A stretch of DNA of 64,000 bases from a bacterium (lineage in GTDB: Bacteria; Patescibacteriota; Microgenomatia; UBA1406; GWC2-37-13). Positions 1,309 to 32,110 of this stretch are shown piece after piece. Positions within the stretch are counted from its first letter, which is position 1. Each line of letters starts with the position of its first letter. The stretch spans positions 18,102-82,101 of the forward strand of contig JAJYOJ010000004.1 of the NCBI GenBank assembly GCA_021796235.1, in the 5' to 3' direction. Below the pieces are notes generated by a model. It was given only the letters and a program-made list of their open reading frames with translations. It did not search any database and was not told where the DNA came from. The position numbers and the translations under genes are program-made.

Positions 1309-3079
1309 CCGTCACGCTTTTGGCAATGTTTCTAGGTTTGTCGACATCGTGTCCCAGCATTGTTCCCAAGTAATAAGCCAAAAGCTGCAACGGTACGATA
1401 TTCATAACCGCACTTGTCTCCCCACAGTCGGGAACTTTAAGATGCAAACTGAAATTCTCATGAGCCTCCGGTGAGATTCCAATTACATAGGCACCTCTGG
1501 CCCGAACTTCATTAATGGCATTGTTGATATCAGACTTCACCTTATCATTATTCATAACTACAATTACAGGAATGCCTTCCTCTATCAGAGTTATCGCATA
1601 GTGTTTCAAGTCGCCGGCTGGAATTGCCTGAGCGTGTTTATAGGAATCCTCAATTATTTTAATCATCCCTTCTCTGACAATCTGATAATTTTGATATTTA
1701 CCCATTAAGAATATATCGTGTGAGTTAATAAGTTTTTTTGCTAATTGCTTAACTTGCTTAGAATCAGATTGCAAATAGCTTTCAATTTTTTTTGCCAGCT
1801 CTTTTAAGTTAGTTTTAGCTTCTGCCACCTGGCCTACAGTTGTTTTTACCACGAGATAACCCCAGACTATTTGCGAAACGAAGACTTTTGTCGAGAGCAC
1901 ACAAATTTCCGGTCCTGCTTGTGCCATAAATTTATAGTCAGCGATACGCGTCATCATCGATCCGGGCATATTCACAAAAGAGGCAATTTTTACCCCTTTC
2001 TTCTTGGCATATTCCAAAACCTCAAGAACGTCGGCGGTTTCCCCGCTTTGTGACGGTGCGAGTATCAGGTCTCCTTTTGAAAATAAATTGTAATAATCAC
2101 GGGCATCAGCTCCGACTAGACTAATGCAGTTTATTTTGGCGATCTCTCTGAGATAGAAAGCTGTTTGTGCCGCAGCCACTCCGGCTGTTCCAGAACCGAT
2201 CGCGTAAACTGTTTTGGCTTTTTTAATTTCAGAAGCCAATTTAGCATAATCTAATCCGTTTTGTTTTATTAATTGTCTGATCGCAAACGGTTCTTCATGG
2301 ATCTCTTTTAGCATAAAGTAATCGTAACCCTCTTTATCGATCTTACTTTTTTCAATTTTAATGTCTTCAAGTTTATAATTTTCTTTACTGCCGGTTTTAA
2401 TATCAAATAACTCAACGCGGTTATCTGAACATCTGACAATTTTGCCGTTATCGACAACGATCAATTTTTTCGTCATTTCCGCAAAGGACAATGCATCAGA
2501 GGAAAAGAAGATCTCAGCAGTTTGCGGATTAGTTCCTATGACTAGAGGTGAACCATTGCGCGCTGCGATGATTTCTCCGGAATGCTTTGCTAGTATAATA
2601 ATTGTGTTTCTTCCTTCAAGCTGTAAAAAAGCATTTCGAACTGCAGAAAGCAAATAAGCTGTTTTTTTTAATTCGTCTTCAATGAGTCTCACGATGACTT
2701 CTGTGTCGGTCTGAGTTACAAACTTATAGCCTTTTTTACTGAGGCTTTTTTTTAAGTCCTCATAATTTTCAACGATCCCATTTTGCGCCAGAGCAAATGA
2801 TTTATCAGTTGAGAAATGGGGATGAGCATTGATATCGGTAACTGCGCCGGTCGTTGCCCAACGCGTATGACCAATTCCAATAGAGCTTTTCGGTAATTTT
2901 TTCCAATCATCCGCTTCGCTAATCTTTCCCGCCCTTTTCGCAATCAGAATATTTCCTTTAGATTGGACTGCGATTCCCCAAGAATCATATCCCCGATATT
3001 CAAGTCGCTTCAGACCCAATAAAACCGTTTTTGCAGCATCGCCCGACTTATCATTCACGACACCAAAAATACCACACAT
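1301..3079 (-). CDS. glmS: Glutamine--fructose-6-phosphate aminotransferase (isomerizing)
   Basis: GlmS makes glucosamine-6-phosphate from fructose-6-phosphate and glutamine, the first committed step to UDP-GlcNAc and peptidoglycan. At 592 residues it is the usual length. The start is fixed by MCGIFGVV, because the catalytic N-terminal Cys2 of the Ntn-type glutaminase must follow Met1. GHTRWATTG and the NGIVENY loop are glutaminase-domain signatures. Two SIS sugar isomerase domains follow (GSGTAGVAAAQ and SQSGETADVLE near residues 295-350; KYQNYQIVREGMIKI near 460), and the tail DKPRNIAKSVTVK is the GlmS C-terminal active-site segment. No glmS ribozyme-like leader is evident upstream. Confidence 0.97.
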   Translation of the reverse strand: MCGIFGVVNDKSGDAAKTVLLGLKRLEYRGYDSWGIAVQSKGNILIAKRAGKISEADDWKKLPKSSIGIGHTRWATTGAVTDINAHPHFSTDKSFALAQNGIVENYEDLKKSLSKKGYKFVTQTDTEVIVRLIEDELKKTAYLLSAVRNAFLQLEGRNTIIILAKHSGEIIAARNGSPLVIGTNPQTAEIFFSSDALSFAEMTKKLIVVDNGKIVRCSDNRVELFDIKTGSKENYKLEDIKIEKSKIDKEGYDYFMLKEIHEEPFAIRQLIKQNGLDYAKLASEIKKAKTVYAIGSGTAGVAAAQTAFYLREIAKINCISLVGADARDYYNLFSKGDLILAPSQSGETADVLEVLEYAKKKGVKIASFVNMPGSMMTRIADYKFMAQAGPEICVLSTKVFVSQIVWGYLVVKTTVGQVAEAKTNLKELAKKIESYLQSDSKQVKQLAKKLINSHDIFLMGKYQNYQIVREGMIKIIEDSYKHAQAIPAGDLKHYAITLIEEGIPVIVVMNNDKVKSDINNAINEVRARGAYVIGISPEAHENFSLHLKVPDCGETSAVMNIVPLQLLAYYLGTMLGHDVDKPRNIAKSVTVK

Positions 3080-3221
3080 AATGGTTTAAGAAGCTCAATG
3101 AAAAATATTAATTTTAAGAGGGTAGTTGGTTATTTGTTTTTTCTTTCAAAAAAACATTAAAGTTGACAACCGCAACTTGGAGGTCCCCGCAGATGATATT
3201 TCGAACACCTCCACTTCGTAT

Positions 3222-3238
3222 CCCCGCCAATGACGGGG
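3222..3238. repeat. Small GC hairpin in the glmS / CvpA-CAP intergenic gap
   Basis: CCCCG and CGGGG arms flank a 7-base loop in an otherwise AT-rich 260-base gap. No T-run follows on either strand, so it is not a convincing terminator. The rest of the gap (3080-3324) shows no gene that I can support. Confidence 0.3.
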
Positions 3239-3324
3239 CCACACGCTTGAATATTGATAATAACTACGCCTTTTCAAAGAGCTTTTCAGCAAAGGATAGC
3301 AAAAGGAAAACTTGTTGTCAAATC

Positions 3325-26803: not shown

Positions 26804-27677
26804 ATGTATTAGTTAGATAATAATTGTTTAATACTCTTCCTAGAAAAATTCCAACCAATGCTTTTAATTGTAACATAATTTTAAGTATATAGAGTTTTTG
26901 CTGGGAGTAATGCTTTTTATAGAAAAAGATAAAACCTCTATAGACCTGGAGGATTGGATAGGTTCGTCCTTGACTTGAAGCCGAACCAAGATGTATAAAT
27001 CGTGCTTCCGGATAAAAAAATACCCTAAATCCCCGTTTTTTGGCCCGATATAAAAGATCGATCTCATCCATGTACATAAAAATATTTTCATCGAAGCCGC
27101 CCAGCTCGCTGAAATAGTGGTTTTTTGTCAAAATACAAGCGCCCGAAATCCAATCAACTTCTCTGGTTATAGCTGGTGAGTAACGAGTTAAACTCCAGTA
27201 ATCACCGCGCAAAAATAAAGCTGCAAAAATAACAGACAATGAGTAAAACGGTCCACAAGATGGTTGTGAAGTTAAATTTTTGTTCAATAACTTTCCACCT
27301 AAAAAGTTGATCGTATTTTCCCGCTGTTTATAAAATGTTAACAGTTTTTCTATTGCGTCTTCTAATACCAGAACATCTGAATTAAGAAAGAGTATATATT
27401 CACCTTCAGCAACTTTAGCTGCCTGATTATTGGCTTTTGCGAAGCCCACGTTTTTTTTGTTGAAAAGCGTTTTGAGATTTAGGTTGTGGTTTTGAGATTT
27501 GAATTTTGATATTTGATCTTGGCTGCCATCGGTTGAAGCGTTATCAACCATAATGATTTCGTAATGCATTTGAGATTTTTTAAGCGATTTTACGATCGAA
27601 TCAAGGCAGTTCTGGGTTATGGTTTTCGTATTGTAAGAAATAACAATGATCGAAAGTTCAATTTTTCGCTCACTCAT
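26769..27677 (-). CDS. Glycosyltransferase family 2 (rhamnosyltransferase-like)
   Basis: A GT-A enzyme of 302 residues: LSIIVISYNTKTITQNCLDSI, EIIMVDNASTDGSQ, KNVGFAKANNQ, YILFLNSDVLV (DxD-like) and WISGACILTK ... GGFDENIFMYMDEIDL. This is the pattern of dTDP-rhamnosyl transferases of the WbbL type. It is the first gene of the polysaccharide operon. A -10 element TATAAT ends six bases before the ATG, so the operon mRNA is probably leaderless. Confidence 0.9.
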   Translation of the reverse strand: MSERKIELSIIVISYNTKTITQNCLDSIVKSLKKSQMHYEIIMVDNASTDGSQDQISKFKSQNHNLNLKTLFNKKNVGFAKANNQAAKVAEGEYILFLNSDVLVLEDAIEKLLTFYKQRENTINFLGGKLLNKNLTSQPSCGPFYSLSVIFAALFLRGDYWSLTRYSPAITREVDWISGACILTKNHYFSELGGFDENIFMYMDEIDLLYRAKKRGFRVFFYPEARFIHLGSASSQGRTYPILQVYRGFIFFYKKHYSQQKLYILKIMLQLKALVGIFLGRVLNNYYLTNTYEEAFKIAQMA

Positions 27678-27679
27678 TG

Positions 27680-27689
27680 TATAATTATA
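27680..27689. promoter_or_regulatory. Overlapping divergent -10 elements for GT2 operon and tRNA
   Basis: The plus strand reads TATAAT at 27680-27685, 12 bases before the tRNA; the minus strand reads TATAAT at 27689-27684, six bases before the GT2 ATG. The two -10 boxes share bases, so only one polymerase can melt the site at a time. The -35 elements are weak on both sides. Confidence 0.5.
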
Positions 27690-27697
27690 ACAAAGAA

Positions 27698-27769
27698 GTC
27701 AGCATAGCTCAGTGGTAGAGCAATCGTTTCATAAGCGATCGGTCGCAGGTTCGAATCCTGCTGCTGACA
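27698..27769 (+). tRNA. tRNA-Met (CAT anticodon), probably elongator
   Basis: A complete 72-base cloverleaf: acceptor GTCAGCA pairs with TGCTGAC, D-arm GCTC/GAGC with AGTGGTA loop, anticodon stem ATCGT/GCGAT with loop TTCATAA, and T-arm GCAGG-TTCGAAT-CCTGC. The discriminator is A and no CCA is encoded. Position 1:72 is a G-C pair and the anticodon stem lacks three G-C pairs, so it is not the initiator. A lysidine-modified tRNA-Ile2 (also CAT) cannot be excluded. Confidence 0.95.
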
Positions 27770-27773
27770 CAGA

Positions 27774-28910
27774 TTACAAAAGCTTTTCCAGAATTTGTTC
27801 CAAGCTATTAATAGAATCTATCTGTACCCATTCATTGGCGCCGTGACGATTACCTCCGATCGTCCCGATACAACAGGAAGTGCTTTTAAATTGGGATACA
27901 AGCAAAGCCAAATCGACGTAGCCAGACCTAGAAGGGTCGGTAAAATCCGCTCTCCCAATAGATTCAGTTACCTTGTCGGTTATATACTTTAATTTTGATC
28001 TATATGAGTACCAAGGATTTAAATTGTGGGTGATTTTTTTAACCATAAACTTTATTTTCTGTTCCAAAAACCAATTATTTAAGCTATTAATGACGAGCTG
28101 CAGATTTATTTTTCGGTTGGTACGTATTTCCAAGGTTGCCTCGAGAAAGTCGGGAATGTTATTGCCGTTTTTTCCTAGCGTAACGTCTTTATTTCGTTTA
28201 ATAAATAAACCGGATCTTAAATAGGAAATATTCAGAGTTGAACTACCGAGGTCTTTGTCCGGGTTTTTTTTCAATAATTCCTCAAGTTTTCCTATAGTTT
28301 TATTAAATCCGATCAATACATTGTTTCCATTAGTTTGATTGGCAGAGTGGCCGGATTTTCCAAGACACTCTATGTCAATTTCGATCAAACCTCGACAGCA
28401 GTTTCTTATCTTAAGGTTCTCACCGTCAGTTGAAATTATCTTTTCGGACTTCAGGATTTTTTTATATTTACCAATGAAAGAATACATACCTTTAAACTCA
28501 TATTCTTCATCAACATAAAACAAAAACATAATTTTTTGGTCTTTAATCCTTTCCGCCAACTTCATAAGCACTGCAACATTGGATTTGGTATCAGCCGTTC
28601 CTAATCCGTAGAGCTTATTTTTTATTCGTGTGGCTACATATTTTTCTGTCAAGCAACCCTGTTTAGGCTGGACCGTATCTATGTGGTCGATAAATAGAAT
28701 ATCAACCTGCAAAAAATCTTTTTTTTTACAGCTTTTTGAGTAAGCAATTACATTAAAGCGATTACCTTCAACCGGAGATTTTTCCACGACCAATTTAGTA
28801 TTTTTTTTTAGATATCGAAATATAAATTTAGCAATTTGTACTTCATTATTAACGGAATCGACGTAACTCGGGATTGATATAAGTTTCTTAAGTAAATTCA
28901 GGGTATTCAT
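27774..28910 (-). CDS. M20-family metallopeptidase / amidohydrolase
   Basis: The 378-residue protein has the di-zinc M20 fold: FIDHIDTV (His76, Asp78), GLGTADTKSNVAVL with the bridging Asp107, the catalytic Glu pair FYVDEEYEFKG (135-136), STDGE (Asp162) and GGNRHGANEW near the C-terminus (His356). The middle GKSGHSANQTNGNNVL belongs to the dimerisation (lid) domain. M20 members hydrolyse dipeptides (including Xaa-His dipeptidases and carnosinases) or N-acylated amino acids. It is the second gene of the operon controlled by the histidine-type attenuator, three bases after the GNAT gene, so release of histidine from a peptide or acyl form is a reasonable inference. Confidence 0.85.
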   Translation of the reverse strand: MNTLNLLKKLISIPSYVDSVNNEVQIAKFIFRYLKKNTKLVVEKSPVEGNRFNVIAYSKSCKKKDFLQVDILFIDHIDTVQPKQGCLTEKYVATRIKNKLYGLGTADTKSNVAVLMKLAERIKDQKIMFLFYVDEEYEFKGMYSFIGKYKKILKSEKIISTDGENLKIRNCCRGLIEIDIECLGKSGHSANQTNGNNVLIGFNKTIGKLEELLKKNPDKDLGSSTLNISYLRSGLFIKRNKDVTLGKNGNNIPDFLEATLEIRTNRKINLQLVINSLNNWFLEQKIKFMVKKITHNLNPWYSYRSKLKYITDKVTESIGRADFTDPSRSGYVDLALLVSQFKSTSCCIGTIGGNRHGANEWVQIDSINSLEQILEKLL

Positions 28911-28912
28911 AT

Positions 28913-29644
28913 TTATTTTCTTCGCGCAACATAAAACATGCGCGGATTTCCTTCCACCATATAAGTGTCGCCACCGGGAACGAAGTATTGAAAGTCATAT
29001 CCGATCACATCCAGCTGCTCTTTTTTTAAAGACAACCAGGGTTTATTAATAGTTCTTCCGACAATCACTTCCGTTCCCAAATCAATCGCCGAGTTTATTC
29101 TTACTTGACTTAATATTCTGCCTGCGCCCTGTTGCTGTTTTGTCGGAGTCACGCAGGTTTCGTTGTCGTAAAAAACCATAATGTTTGGGGCTAACTCCAT
29201 AGTGTTTACTATAGAATCAAGGATTTCCTTCTTGTTTCCGTACTTGATTTTTACCAGTTCTTCTAGTTCAGTCGTTCCTCCAGTTGTAAACCCGATAACT
29301 TTTCCGTTTTCTTTGGCTTTAATTAACGTGCCGGGAGTAAATTCGGAAAGTGTTTTAGGAAAATAATTATTTATTAGTCCATCTTTTGGGTATGCTTCGC
29401 CTAGAGAGTTACCCTTACAGTTTGGGCAGCAGGTATCTACGGAAGAAAATGTTCCGCAATCTGCACATTTAAATTTTTCCCACCAGGGTGGCCCGCCAAA
29501 ACCTAACTGATAAACCGAGGCCATTTCTTCCAATTCTCTCGGTGCAATAGATGATAATGCTCTTATGGCTTCCGAAGGATTGTTATAAACAAAAACGGAA
29601 AGAGAAATACCCGCGACCTTTTTTTCTTTTGATTGTATTTCCAT
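28913..29644 (-). CDS. GNAT-like acyltransferase with zinc ribbon
   Basis: A 243-residue protein. The N-terminal third has a four-cysteine zinc ribbon, CADCGTFSSVDTCCPNCKG (Cys60, Cys63, Cys72 or 73, Cys76), preceded by the GPPWWEKF motif common in GNAT proteins of this subgroup. A GNAT core follows: KENGKVIGFTTGG, VFYDNETCVTPTKQQQGAGRILSQVR (acetyl-CoA loop QQGAG) and IVGRTINKPWLSLKKEQLD. The acceptor is unknown. It is the first gene after the attenuator. There is no Shine-Dalgarno before the ATG, and the terminator T-run ends 20 bases upstream. Pairing with an M20 hydrolase suggests acylation and deacylation of the same compound class. Confidence 0.75.
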   Translation of the reverse strand: MEIQSKEKKVAGISLSVFVYNNPSEAIRALSSIAPRELEEMASVYQLGFGGPPWWEKFKCADCGTFSSVDTCCPNCKGNSLGEAYPKDGLINNYFPKTLSEFTPGTLIKAKENGKVIGFTTGGTTELEELVKIKYGNKKEILDSIVNTMELAPNIMVFYDNETCVTPTKQQQGAGRILSQVRINSAIDLGTEVIVGRTINKPWLSLKKEQLDVIGYDFQYFVPGGDTYMVEGNPRMFYVARRK

Positions 29645-29664
29645 AATTTTAAAATTAAATTATT

Positions 29665-29691
29665 AAAAAACCCGCCTTATAAAGCGGGGTA
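29665..29691 (-). terminator. Attenuator terminator (regions 3:4)
   Basis: On the minus strand CCCGC (29688-29684) pairs with GCGGG (29675-29671); two inner pairs can extend the stem to seven around a TATA loop. Six T follow at 29670-29665. It lies in the leader of the GNAT-M20 operon, before the start codon, so it is an attenuator rather than an end-of-gene signal. Confidence 0.85.
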
Positions 29692-29737
29692 GGAACGAGA
29701 AATTGATAAATATTAAATTACCCCGCAAAAAGCGGGT
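29684..29737 (-). promoter_or_regulatory. Histidine attenuator: alternative RNA pairings 1:2 and 2:3
   Basis: Read on the minus strand: region 1 is ACCCGC (29737-29732), region 2 is GCGGGGTA (29726-29719), region 3 is TACCCCGC (29691-29684), and region 4 is in the terminator. Regions 1 and 2 form a hairpin with a TTTTT loop. Regions 2 and 3 are perfect 8-base complements and form the antiterminator. The His codons of the leader peptide end inside region 1 and its stop codon lies in region 2. A ribosome stalled on His codons would free region 2 to pair with 3; one that reaches the stop would cover region 2 and permit the terminator. This is the classical his/trp attenuator arrangement. Confidence 0.85.
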
Positions 29738-29777
29738 GATGATGTAGAGAGCCATTAATGGAATTCATTTTTTTCAT
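29718..29777 (-). CDS. His-rich leader peptide of the attenuator
   Basis: A 19-residue reading frame, MKKMNSINGSLHHHPLFAG, with three consecutive His codons CAT CAT CAC (29744-29736). Enterobacterial HisL likewise ends with a run of His followed by Pro. A second in-frame ATG (29768) could also start it. No clear Shine-Dalgarno is seen. About 26 bases separate the predicted transcription start from the first ATG. The peptide needs no function beyond being translated. Confidence 0.85.
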   Translation of the reverse strand: MKKMNSINGSLHHHPLFAG

Positions 29778-29801
29778 AAAGATGAATACAGTTATATTAT
29801 T

Positions 29802-29827
29802 GTATTAGTATGTTAACATGATATTAT
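29802..29827. promoter_or_regulatory. Candidate operator of the TrpR/YerC-family regulator
   Basis: A perfect core palindrome ATGTTAACAT (29810-29819) is centred between 29814 and 29815, with further symmetric TA positions in both flanks (TA.TA..ATGTT | AACAT..TA.TA). The GTTAAC centre is also the centre of the E. coli TrpR operator. It covers the -10 of the attenuated operon and lies in the spacer of the divergent promoter, so binding could repress both. Confidence 0.6.
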
Positions 29828-29838
29828 AAGTTTGTCAA
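29810..29838 (-). promoter_or_regulatory. Promoter of the attenuated GNAT-M20 operon
   Basis: On the minus strand TTGACA (29838-29833), a 17-base spacer and TAACAT (29815-29810). The -35 bases are shared with the divergent promoter of the TrpR-family gene. The -10 lies inside the palindrome ATGTTAACAT. Confidence 0.8.
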
Positions 29839-29859
29839 GAGAGATTTTAGTGATATAAT
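29832..29859 (+). promoter_or_regulatory. Promoter of the TrpR-family regulator
   Basis: TTGTCA (29832-29837), a 16-base spacer and TATAAT (29854-29859), with TGA before it. The ATG is five bases after the -10, so the mRNA is leaderless. Confidence 0.7.
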
Positions 29860-29864
29860 TTTTT

Positions 29865-30155
29865 ATGCAAAAAACCGAATTTTACAGACCAAAAAATACG
29901 AAGGAAAAACTTTTAGTTGATGCGTTCTTAAAATTAAAAACGCAGCAGGACATGGCTGATTTTTTAAGGGATTTATTAACTCTGCCGGAAATAGAAGAGT
30001 TTGCAAACAGACTTGAAATTGCTAGACTACTTCTTAAAAGGGGTTCTTATAAACGAATTGCCAAACAGACAGGGGTATCAACAACAACTGTTACTCGCGT
30101 TGCCCATTGGCTCTTCAAAGGCTGCGGAGGATATCAAAAGGTTTTAAAAAAATAA
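29865..30155 (+). CDS. TrpR-family transcriptional regulator (YerC/YecD type)
   Basis: The 96-residue protein has the all-helical Trp-repressor fold: KEKLLVDAFLKLKTQQDMADFLRDLLTLPEIEEFANRLE (family helices) and the helix-turn-helix GSYKRIAKQTGVSTTTVTRVAHWL, ending GCGGYQKVL, a hallmark of the YerC/YecD branch. In Firmicutes, comparative genomics (as I recall it) has linked this branch to histidine genes under the name HisR. Here it is divergent from an operon with a histidine attenuator, which fits. It ends immediately before the convergent rarA stop. Confidence 0.9.
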   Translation: MQKTEFYRPKNTKEKLLVDAFLKLKTQQDMADFLRDLLTLPEIEEFANRLEIARLLLKRGSYKRIAKQTGVSTTTVTRVAHWLFKGCGGYQKVLKK

Positions 30156-31361
30156 TCATTTCCAGTCGGGTACGTAATACTTTCTACCTTTTAAATTTTT
30201 CGGCATATATTCCTGGATAATTTTTCGGCCGGTTTCTTTTTCAACCAACCAGGGGTAGCGGACGTGGCCCCGGCCATAACCTAAGGATCTCATTACTTTA
30301 TTGGCGGGGTTTCTTAAATGCAGAGGGATCGGGTCAAGGTTTTCTTCGTCGATGTCGGATAAAGCTTGAGAGATACCGGCTGTCGAAGCAATTGATTTTT
30401 TGGCAGTTGCTAAATAAGTGGCGGTTTGAGCCAGGATCAGGGAAGCCTCGGGCATACCGATCATGTGAACCGCCTGCATTGCGGCAGTAGCAACAACCAA
30501 AGCCGTGGGTTGGGCGTTACCTATATCTTCGCTCGCAAAAATTACCATTCGTCTGGCAATAAAGACTGGATCTTCTCCGGCCTTAATCATTCTCGCCAGA
30601 TAATGCAAGGTTGCGTCGGGCTGCGAACCGCGCAGGCTTTTTATAAATGCCGAAATCGTGTCGTAGTGCCAGTCGCCCTTTTTATCGTAATAAATTGCTT
30701 TTTGCTGAACCGCATCTTCAGCAATTTTCAGTGTTATATGTTTATTCAAACTCGCTGCCAACTCAACCGCATTGATTGCAGTTCTACCGTCTCCATTGGC
30801 ATGTTTGATGATATGTGCAAGCGCTTCTTTATCCCATTTGTGCTGCGGAAAATATGTAAGAGCTCTTTTTACTATTGTTGCAATTTCCTTTTCGTTTAAG
30901 GAATAGAGAACATAAATCTGGCTACGCGAAACCAAAGGCGCAATGACTTCGAATCCCGGATTTTCGGTTGTTGCTCCAATTAAGGTTATGGTCCCATCTT
31001 CAACATGAGGAAGAAATGCATCTTGCTGGGCCTTATTGAAACGGTGTATTTCGTCAATAAAAAGTACCGTCTGTTTTTTGAATAGAGTTTTGTCATCTTT
31101 TGCCTTAGCAATAACCTTTCGGACCTCGGCTAAATTACTTGTAACAGCAGAAAACGGTATAAAATCTGCATTGACATAATGGGCAATAAGTCGGGCGAGT
31201 GTAGTTTTTCCGCACCCCGGGGGTCCCCAGAGAACCATCGATGTTATCTGGCCGGATTCAAGCATCCTCCTTATAAACCTGCCTTTACCGACAAGGTGTT
31301 CCTGACCTACAAATTCATCCAAAGTTTTGGGTCGCATCCGATCGGCAAGTGGAGTATCCAT
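30156..31361 (-). CDS. rarA: Replication-associated recombination ATPase RarA (MgsA)
   Basis: RarA is a clamp-loader-like AAA+ ATPase acting at stalled forks and gaps. The start MDTPLADRMRPKTLDEFVGQEHL is conserved; an upstream ATG at 31436 would add 25 unrelated residues covering the SOS-like box. Walker A is GPPGCGKTT, Walker B FIDEIHRFNKAQQD, sensor GATTENPGFEV, and the C-terminal MgsA domain carries GSQPDATLHYLARMI, FASEDIGNAQP and RYPWLVEKETGRKIIQEYMP (near the end). At 401 residues it is slightly short. A LexA-type box lies eight bases upstream. Confidence 0.95.
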   Translation of the reverse strand: MDTPLADRMRPKTLDEFVGQEHLVGKGRFIRRMLESGQITSMVLWGPPGCGKTTLARLIAHYVNADFIPFSAVTSNLAEVRKVIAKAKDDKTLFKKQTVLFIDEIHRFNKAQQDAFLPHVEDGTITLIGATTENPGFEVIAPLVSRSQIYVLYSLNEKEIATIVKRALTYFPQHKWDKEALAHIIKHANGDGRTAINAVELAASLNKHITLKIAEDAVQQKAIYYDKKGDWHYDTISAFIKSLRGSQPDATLHYLARMIKAGEDPVFIARRMVIFASEDIGNAQPTALVVATAAMQAVHMIGMPEASLILAQTATYLATAKKSIASTAGISQALSDIDEENLDPIPLHLRNPANKVMRSLGYGRGHVRYPWLVEKETGRKIIQEYMPKNLKGRKYYVPDWK

Positions 31362-31368
31362 ATTTACT

Positions 31369-31384
31369 GTGAACGCTTGTTCAC
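31369..31384 (-). promoter_or_regulatory. LexA-type SOS box upstream of rarA
   Basis: GTGAACGCTTGTTCAC (plus-strand reading) is a palindrome with six-base arms and the Gram-positive LexA core GAAC-N4-GTTC. It lies seven bases before the rarA ATG, overlapping the probable transcription start. Confidence 0.6.
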
Positions 31385-31430
31385 TAATAGAATATATTAT
31401 GCGGAAACAGATTTCAAGCGGAATTCTTCC

Positions 31431-31449
31431 GTACACCCTAAGGGTGTAC
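31431..31449. repeat. REP-like palindrome upstream of rarA
   Basis: Arms GTACACCCT and AGGGTGTAC flank a single A: a nine-base perfect stem. It shares CACCC/GGGTG with the RAYT-associated palindromes. It lies outside the chosen rarA coding region. Confidence 0.7.
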
Positions 31450-31595
31450 TAAAATACCTAGATTATTTTGGTTATAACAGGCTCAATTCGACGAACGAAA
31501 AATTAGTTAGAAATTGGTTAGATATACATAACTCAAAACCAGGTCATAGAGCTACGTACGTCGATAAAAACAGCGTGCCTCGATCTGATAACTAA
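31444..31595 (+). pseudogene. Unidentified C-terminal protein fragment
   Basis: From inside the REP palindrome a frame reads VLKYLDYFGYNRLNSTNEKL and continues RNWLDIHNSKPGHRATYVDK to a stop. The composition (Trp, Pro-Gly-His, aromatic residues) looks like real protein, but there is no start codon with an RBS and no upstream domain. I do not recognise the family. It may be a remnant truncated at the REP insertion. Downstream to 31640 nothing else is visible. Confidence 0.3.
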
Positions 31596-31640
31596 TTGTG
31601 GATAAAACATTAATTAAATAGATGATTATCTATTCACTGT

Positions 31641-31669
31641 TTGACTTTAATATCTTAAAGTATTAAAAT
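31641..31669 (+). promoter_or_regulatory. Sigma70 promoter of the 143-residue protein gene
   Basis: TTGACT (31641-31646), 17-base spacer, TAAAAT (31664-31669). The ATG follows after nine bases. Confidence 0.65.
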
Positions 31670-31678
31670 TGTTGGCTT

Positions 31679-32110
31679 ATGAGTGTAAGAAGCGAACTAT
31701 TGCATAATTTAGGAAATGCCGCCGGAAACTTCGCCGGATGGATATTCTTTAGCGCTTTTGTTCTGAGTCCAGGAAAAGCCGATATAAAACCCAGCCGCGC
31801 TGGTACACCTGCCTATACACTTTTAAATGATCGCGACAGACATTATCCTGAAAATACTCCTTTATCAATAATTGTTGAGGGTAGGTTGGTCAGGGCTATT
31901 GACGGCAAAGCGATTAATCCGGAAGCTGATATCGCAGTACGAATGACGCTGGTTATACAACCAGGCGGTAAGCAAGATGTACTAGTGGGGGAAGGAGATA
32001 GTATAAATCTAGTGAATACAGACGCAAAAATAATACACACGAATCTATCAGCAGCGGAATATTGTAAAAAAATCTTCCCCCAATCGATAAACCGAAGAAA
32101 AATCCAATAA
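31679..32110 (+). CDS. Hypothetical protein with N-terminal hydrophobic helix
   Basis: A 143-residue protein I do not recognise. A weak hydrophobic segment (GNFAGWIFFSAFVLS, residues 16-30) may be a signal anchor. The rest is a beta-rich, polar region (YTLLNDRDRHYP, PLSIIVEGRLVRAIDGKAI, IAVRMTLVIQPGGKQ) resembling a small secreted domain, with one cysteine near the end. It starts a group of small orphan genes (31.7-34.2 kb) between rarA and the class A PBP. A clear promoter supports expression. Confidence 0.6.
   Translation: MSVRSELLHNLGNAAGNFAGWIFFSAFVLSPGKADIKPSRAGTPAYTLLNDRDRHYPENTPLSIIVEGRLVRAIDGKAINPEADIAVRMTLVIQPGGKQDVLVGEGDSINLVNTDAKIIHTNLSAAEYCKKIFPQSINRRKIQ

Follow-up and report, generated by a model that had tools for sequence, protein, structure and literature searches.

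The enterobacterial his leader, with its seven His codons, and the His leaders of Firmicutes are the closest described relatives of the element reported here. In PMC2965389, His leader peptides in Bacillus are described at hisS* and hisZ, and at hisS a T-box and a leader peptide replace each other. PMC9413887 describes HisR as a histidine-sensing repressor in Firmicutes and places his-operon leaders in the B. cereus group, in Peptostreptococcaceae with Lutispora and in Erysipelotrichales, from a leader survey limited to cases without HisR and T-box control. Our element lies on the minus strand, at 29,665 to 29,777 of a 64,000-nucleotide stretch of contig JAJYOJ010000004.1 from a patescibacterium of the class Microgenomatia (the whole stretch analysed is called the window). 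This element is very likely a ribosome-mediated attenuator, in which slow translation of three His codons would let region 2 of the leader RNA pair with region 3, prevent the terminator formed by regions 3 and 4, and so allow transcription of a two-gene operon, encoding a GNAT-fold protein and an M20 metallohydrolase (GNAT-M20), when charged tRNA-His is scarce. The first-pass annotation, made from the sequence alone, had proposed an attenuator of the his/trp type, and that proposal is supported by the anatomy, by a location control covering 20 amino acids, by the histidine context and by His-dependent pairing in leaders of other sequence. The parts of the leader are as follows.

29833..29838, minus strand: -35 box TTGACA of the leader promoter (consensus match only)
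29810..29815, minus strand: -10 box TAACAT of the leader promoter, with TG in front (consensus match only)
29718..29777, minus strand: leader peptide MKKMNSINGSLHHHPLFAG, 19 codons (ATG at 29777, stop codon TAA at 29720-29718)
29736..29744, minus strand: three adjacent His codons, CAT CAT CAC (read from the sequence)
29732..29737, minus strand: region 1, ACCCGC, overlapping the last of the three His codons and continuing into the codons after it (1:2 hairpin, -10.4 kcal/mol)
29719..29726, minus strand: region 2, GCGGGGTA, its last bases being the first two of the stop codon (2:3 pairing, -12.2 kcal/mol)
29684..29691, minus strand: region 3, TACCCCGC, complementary to region 2 at 8/8 bases and 27 nucleotides after it
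29671..29688, minus strand: 3:4 terminator hairpin CCCGCTTTATAAGGCGGG (-9.7 kcal/mol), with region 4, GCGGG, at 29671-29675
29665..29670, minus strand: T run of the terminator, six T (read from the sequence)

The leader codons are ATG AAA AAA ATG AAT TCC ATT AAT GGC TCT CTA CAT CAT CAC CCG CTT TTT GCG GGG TAA. The annotation was right about the promoter, the 19 codons, the CAT CAT CAC run, the 8/8 complementarity of region 2 to region 3 and the six-T terminator. The promoter (TTGACA-17 nucleotides-TAACAT) has 10 of 12 consensus bases, and promoter-like matches are not enriched over 27000-32000 as a whole (12, against 14.5 +/- 4.2 in shuffles). The 3:4 terminator has seven pairs, five of them G-C; the 5 kb scan gave two more terminator-like sites on the minus strand, both weaker. 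At gathering score, Rfam recognized in the whole window only a tRNA-Met and a glmS element and nothing at the leader; at that score, the threshold of the search, the His leader family RF00514 had no match at the leader and the T-box model none in the window. The glmS ribozyme match lies at 3126-3258 on the minus strand of the window and scores 42.6 bits against a gathering score of 37.

The predicted fold of the 113-nucleotide leader has a z-score of -3.8 and that of its 80-nucleotide hairpin part a z-score of -5.4; none of 200 shuffles was as stable in the first case, and none of 200 dinucleotide shuffles in the second. When the ribosome footprint was taken to end at A+13, the probability of 2:3 pairing before region 4 is made was 0.99, 0.99 and 0.85 for a ribosome at His12, His13 and His14 and 0.00 for one at the stop codon, and with the edge at A+10 it was 0.99 at all three His codons. 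In the mechanism that we propose, transcription would start about 26 nucleotides upstream of the leader ATG, and a ribosome would follow the polymerase. As long as tRNA-His is charged, the ribosome is predicted to reach the stop codon and cover region 2, and the terminator would form. A ribosome stalled on CAT CAT CAC would instead cover region 1 and leave region 2 free to capture region 3 once it is made.

The GNAT protein was found in one of 72 genomes of the family and in two of 83 of the order (the organism's own genome counted in both), a rarity that makes the covariance model from orthologous leaders suggested by the annotation impossible; leaders of M20 clusters and tails of hisR genes were used instead. 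The comparative support is drawn from Patescibacteria that are less closely related. The window and 27 loci of named genomes that carry M20 relatives were scanned on both strands (649,842 strand-bases) for short frames that are followed by a terminator and in which some stretch of five codons includes three or more for one amino acid; all 20 amino acids were covered. For His, 12 matches in eight loci fell in the 800 nucleotides ahead of the opening gene of the M20 cluster, where a uniform distribution would place 0.48; one of the 12 is a hisR tail. Both His matches elsewhere are at histidine loci, one being a hisR tail ahead of a gene that Pfam identifies as HisG (locus L002) and the other a leader beside tRNA-His, far upstream of M20 (L006). 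The remaining 19 amino acids had 0 to 5 near matches each (Leu 5, Arg 4), and within the window the same loose rule also picked Phe, Gly, Leu, Arg and Val frames. The presence of a His leader at this gene cluster exceeds chance.

A folding test was applied to leaders of both kinds, free-standing and at the end of hisR. The RNA was blocked up to the edge of the footprint of a ribosome whose A site was placed either on the first two His codons or on the stop codon. Two measures were taken: whether RNA further upstream captures the 5′ arm of a terminator that is still incomplete, and whether the finished terminator forms. The null was a dinucleotide shuffle of the spacer only, with 100 shuffles and hence a lowest p of 0.0099. 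Ten of the 14 free-standing leaders, the window included, reached p <= 0.05 on the first measure and 5/14, the window not among them, on the second; the counts for the leaders other than the window are 9/13 and 5/13. L013b fails on pairing before completion (p 0.99), and L010a, L010b, L012b, L013a, L013b, L021b and L006b show no switch in the finished transcript. The hisR-tail leaders reached p <= 0.05 in 17/22 cases before completion and in 21/22 for the finished transcript, counts that include L097 and L098, which the tail rule had missed and which were added by name after they had been seen to switch (without them, 15/20 and 19/20). Dropped before counting were L008, whose terminator overlaps the His codons, and L011, L084, L120 and L148, which have no terminator by the rule used. 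The pooled p values (3e-8, 5e-4, 2e-15 and 2e-19) are inexact because of the shuffle limit and because some loci are close relatives. Frames of hisR without a His tail are mostly unswitched. Exceptions, switching at the conserved HWLHHG towards the end of the core, are L064, L070 and, in part, L065; in the first two this motif might act as a primitive leader. Spacers and terminators differ among most leaders, yet the complement is kept, a fact that substitutes for the sign of selection expected from orthologous leaders.

A free-standing His leader with a terminator occurs within 700 nucleotides in nine of 41 loci (the window, L003, L005, L010, L012, L013, L021, L049 and L050), and in four others (L002, L008, L014 and L023) a hisR gene has C-terminal His codons at or before the terminator. 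L011 has a hisR tail with HHH and no terminator by our rule, the His leader of L006 is further upstream, and seven loci (L004, L009, L015, L019, L025, L037 and L042) have a terminator of another type. Two successive His leaders flank a tRNA-His gene ahead of M20-hisS in L010, L012, L013 and L021.

Six of the seven loci with the other type of terminator (L004, L015, L019, L025, L037 and L042) have, upstream of M20, GNAT or hisS, a compact T-box-like leader with CAC inside AGTCACG and with AAGGATGGGACCGCGG before the terminator. In an alignment of these six leaders, from which L009 was excluded for its different end, AGTCACG does not vary and AAGGATGGGACCGCGG hardly does. The RNAalifold consensus is weak, with 20 pairs, of which eight show a compensated change. 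The leader of L025 scores 19.6 bits against RF00230, whose gathering score is 93; the remaining six loci searched for a T-box gave no match up to E 10, and Rfam at gathering score returned tRNAs alone in 20 loci. The tRNA-His of L025 carries C73, and by the T-box rule the UGGG of an end of the AAGGATGGGACCGCGG type would presumably pair with the C73-CCA end of tRNA-His. Judged by their sequences, the six leaders are probably a divergent His T-box that scores below the Rfam gathering score, and since the RNAalifold consensus is weak the term T-box-like is used here as an inferred description.

The operon downstream of the leader consists of two genes.

28913..29644, minus strand: GNAT-fold protein with a four-Cys zinc-ribbon-like insert, a predicted N-acetyltransferase (predicted structure)
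27774..28910, minus strand: M20 metallohydrolase, ArgE/DapE-like (PF01546, 53.6 bits; PF07687, 32.9 bits)

The product of the first gene matches no family in Pfam or NCBIfam. Its model has a mean predicted local distance difference test score (pLDDT) of 93.7, and its Foldseek matches, among the rows shown, are GNAT acetyltransferases with query TM-scores of at most 0.50, the insert being extra; C60, C63, C73 and C76 are invariant in nine sequences. The best PDB profile match of the M20 protein is acetylornithine deacetylase 3ct9. A hisS gene stands near M20 relatives in 18 of the 27 named loci, in 15 of them on the same strand and downstream of M20 or M20-GNAT, and both hisS candidates that were run against Pfam are histidyl-tRNA synthetases. 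A tRNA-His gene is near M20 relatives in 16 of 35 loci scanned, a set that leaves out six of the 27 named loci and includes the organism's own hisS locus. Five of the 27 (L002, L008, L011, L014 and L023) have a HisR-type gene upstream of M20; in the window and in L030 such a gene lies opposite the operon. This gene neighbourhood of the relatives (hisS, tRNA-His, hisR) suggests that the operon concerns histidine. No match to HisG or HisD was found in the organism's own genome (96% complete) by searches that were positive in 13 of the 14 genomes used as controls, B. subtilis being the one missed; this suggests that the organism is a histidine auxotroph. The operon would most likely serve histidine supply in such a likely auxotroph, for example if the M20 enzyme freed histidine from peptides or acyl derivatives.

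Opposite the leader is a gene (29865-30155, plus strand), not mentioned in the first-pass annotation, that encodes a YerC/HisR-type repressor.

29865..30155, plus strand: YerC/HisR-type repressor of the TrpR family (TIGR02531, 62.9 bits against a cut-off of 42.2; PF01371)
29832..29859, plus strand: hisR-like promoter TTGTCA-16-TATAAT (11 of 12 consensus bases; -35 region common with the leader promoter)
29803..29826, no strand assigned: candidate HisR operator, the imperfect palindrome TATTAGTATGTTAACATGATATTA, covering the -10 box of the leader promoter

Because this divergent gene is of the YerC/HisR type, the operon is probably under a second control by a TrpR-family repressor, like E. coli trp; when histidine is plentiful, the repressor would likely bind the palindrome over the -10 box of the leader promoter. 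Only five bases separate the hisR-like -10 box from the ATG (window 29832-29865, plus strand), and the mRNA may be leaderless. The palindrome core ATGTTAACAT recurs upstream of hisR in L030 and L074, at its longest in L074, and is also found behind hisR in L112 and L149; its GTTAAC centre in the window fits the GTnnAC pattern given for the TrpR motif in PMC9413887. The Firmicutes HisR operator core CTTTAn6TAAAG is absent within 200 nucleotides upstream of the window hisR, a stretch that includes the leader promoter. It is present upstream of 23 of 72 patescibacterial hisR genes, with 32 sites in 14,616 bp against a background of 45 sites in 758,896 bp, the background including hisR upstream regions and repeated loci. 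The operator accompanies 19/36 hisR genes flagged as having His in the tail and 4/36 unflagged ones; the flag covers the last 26 residues, which in some proteins take in HWLHHG.

In relatives, the leader and the repressor appear to be joined. We think it likely that in Patescibacteria the C-terminal tail of HisR is an attenuator leader, such that one frame would sense free histidine as a protein and charged tRNA-His through its translation, gating the downstream genes twice; the window would then hold the unfused form, with a separate leader beside a divergent hisR. A YerC/HisR match was found in 144 of 379 genomes of the phylum, over the cut-off in 106. The 97 hisR loci that were read (30 plus 60 picked by score, five of them repeats, six earlier ones and the window) hold 98 hisR-like frames. 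Among 73 non-redundant frames shorter than 125 residues, 27 have paired His in the tail, and a terminator lies just behind 22 of these 27 against 13 of the 46 without paired His (Fisher p 1.2e-5); with no length cut the figures are 25/37 and 13/56 (Fisher p 3.2e-5). The 20 frames of at least 125 residues comprise ten with His-rich tails, three of which have a terminator, and ten without a His tail, none of which has one. In five of the long frames (L091, L103, L105, L117 and L126) the core is followed by an HRHHR stretch and no terminator comes after; these frames probably belong to another paralog group and are not leaders. The best 120 of 1138 relatives of one tail protein include 115 with two or more His among five tail residues and 62 with three or more, a count biased by a query that itself has a His tail.

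Individual tails take several forms. The L093 tail reads CAT CAT CAC, then GGG AAA AGG and a stop codon, followed by CCTCTTCCC...GGGAAGAG and a T run. The HisR tail of L008 (4636-4677) ends in HHHKPKFAGL before the stop codon, and the 5′ arm of its terminator overlaps the His codons; a stalled ribosome would directly block this terminator, with no antiterminator needed. L011 (4617-4660) has a tail ending in HHHKPDSAGL before the stop codon, with a T run and no terminator by the rule used, and in L084 (about 1395-1425, minus strand) a tail with HH precedes a strong hairpin without a T run, which may act on translation or by another route. Behind hisR-tail leaders HisG is encoded in L002, L121, L125 and L138, and as the second gene in L098, and a SLOG cluster4 protein (PF18306) in L092, L093 and L111; genes resembling SLOG cluster4 were also seen by eye near M20 in L005, L007 and L026. 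Five genes behind such leaders have no Pfam match at E 1e-3 (L102 1134-2021, L106 1030-2322, L115 1024-1905, L099 1555-2430 and L087 1852-2673). These five are candidates for histidine-related functions.

A number of our observations weigh against the attenuator or against its role in histidine supply. In the finished transcript with region 1 covered, the probability of the terminator is 0.82 for a ribosome at the His codons and 0.93 for one at the stop codon, and the ribosome-free equilibrium fold is 1:4 plus 2:3 (-27.1 kcal/mol), without the terminator. Compared with spacer shuffles, the switch by ribosome position, and with it the exclusivity of the antiterminator, is present in the window leader for pairing before the terminator is complete (p 0.040) and weak in the finished transcript (p 0.158). 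Because the latter fold is so weakly switched, the mechanism must rest on 2:3 pairing that precedes region 4, and in our model the switch of the window is kinetic and set by folding order. Neither the leader ATG nor the GNAT ATG is preceded by a Shine-Dalgarno-like sequence. In L030, the one relative of the same order with the GNAT gene, hisR, the palindrome and both operon genes are present, yet a scan and inspection by eye showed neither leader nor terminator; the distribution of the attenuator is thus patchy. In 19 of the 41 loci none of the elements sought was found, L016, L018 and L052 having less than 700 nucleotides upstream, and the organism's own hisS, on another contig, has no such leader by eye. 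The seven His-rich long frames without a terminator (L091, L103, L105, L117, L126, L133 and L135) weaken the link between tail and terminator for those paralogs, and the auxotrophy is unproven because the HisG and HisD searches missed B. subtilis. The annotation's claim that GNAT-M20 is released at low charged tRNA-His is supported as an inference, tempered by the weak finished-transcript switch of the leader itself and by the missing leader of L030.

Some of these observations would suit another arrangement, with the operon controlled by the HisR-type repressor alone and the leader left as an inactive or decayed relic, since L030 retains repressor and palindrome without a leader and the window combines the weak finished-transcript switch with the lack of a Shine-Dalgarno sequence. 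Eight exact pairs, an intact frame and a T run are unlike decay, however, and before region 4 is made the predicted 2:3 pairing at the His codons is 0.85 to 0.99; we regard a relic as unlikely. The rarA gene (30156-31436, minus strand) points at the hairpin with no minus-strand terminator-like site listed between, so the hairpin could be merely the 3′ terminator of rarA and the His codons coincidental. But it lies about 470 nucleotides past the rarA stop codon, beyond the antisense of hisR and a promoter, and a rarA terminator would leave unexplained the 8/8 complement of regions 2 and 3, the change with ribosome position and the His leaders at homologous genes of other genomes, which makes this origin very improbable. 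The great stability of the ribosome-free 1:4 plus 2:3 fold could also be taken to mean that the RNA senses by structure alone, as a riboswitch or protein-binding leader with an incidental short frame; yet no Rfam family matches here at gathering score, and what the relatives' leaders have in common is their His codons and, mostly, the alternative pairing, not the sequence, so that we give such sensing hardly any credence. The ribosome-mediated attenuator remains our preferred explanation of the element.

The origin of the window in the candidate phyla radiation (CPR), which the annotation had assigned, holds, as 12 loci of the same-class search carry stretches of 500-600 bases identical to named CPR contigs. 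These contigs include Daviesbacteria, Woesebacteria, Amesbacteria, Shapirobacteria and Blackburnbacteria, all of which we take to be Microgenomates. To our knowledge, gene regulation in Patescibacteria has hardly been tested. The annotation knew of no such leader in this group, and in agreement with it, searches of open-licence PubMed Central (PMC) for Patescibacteria, candidate phyla radiation or Microgenomates together with attenuation, leader peptide, T-box or HisR returned no report among the matches listed. If our reading is true, three histidine sensors (a repressor, a leader peptide and probably a T-box-like RNA) would serve one gene cluster across strongly reduced genomes, and histidine supply would be under tight control in a cell likely unable to make histidine. 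A repressor with a built-in leader peptide would moreover be a regulatory layout open to reporter testing.

With the enterobacterial his leader (RF00514; hisL) our element shares a run of His codons, the 1:2, 2:3 and 3:4 alternatives and an intrinsic terminator before an operon; unlike hisL it has no Rfam match, only three His codons, GNAT-M20 rather than histidine biosynthesis as its target, and a TrpR-family gene next to it. The Firmicutes His leaders also have consecutive His codons (three to five in PMC9413887) and alternative hairpins, whereas here a leader and a HisR-type repressor occur together, in another phylum and at other target genes. E. coli trp (TrpR and trpL) likewise places one operon under both a TrpR-family repressor and a ribosome attenuator; there the amino acid is tryptophan, here histidine, and in many relatives the leader peptide is formed by the repressor's own C-terminal tail. 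The HisR (YerC) regulons, as described in PMC9413887, share the TIGR02531 protein and the CTTTAn6TAAAG core found before the 23/72 patescibacterial hisR genes; the palindrome of the window has the GTTAAC core instead, in common with L030 and L074. Chlamydia YtgCR likewise holds a codon run for the sensed amino acid in the regulator's own frame, although, according to PMC7755916, stalling there halts production of a trans-acting regulator, whereas the tail codons described here are predicted to gate downstream genes in cis. The mechanism proposed for the window element is a known one, here in a new group, at a new target and next to a HisR-type repressor; the repressor-tail leader of its relatives is the new layout.
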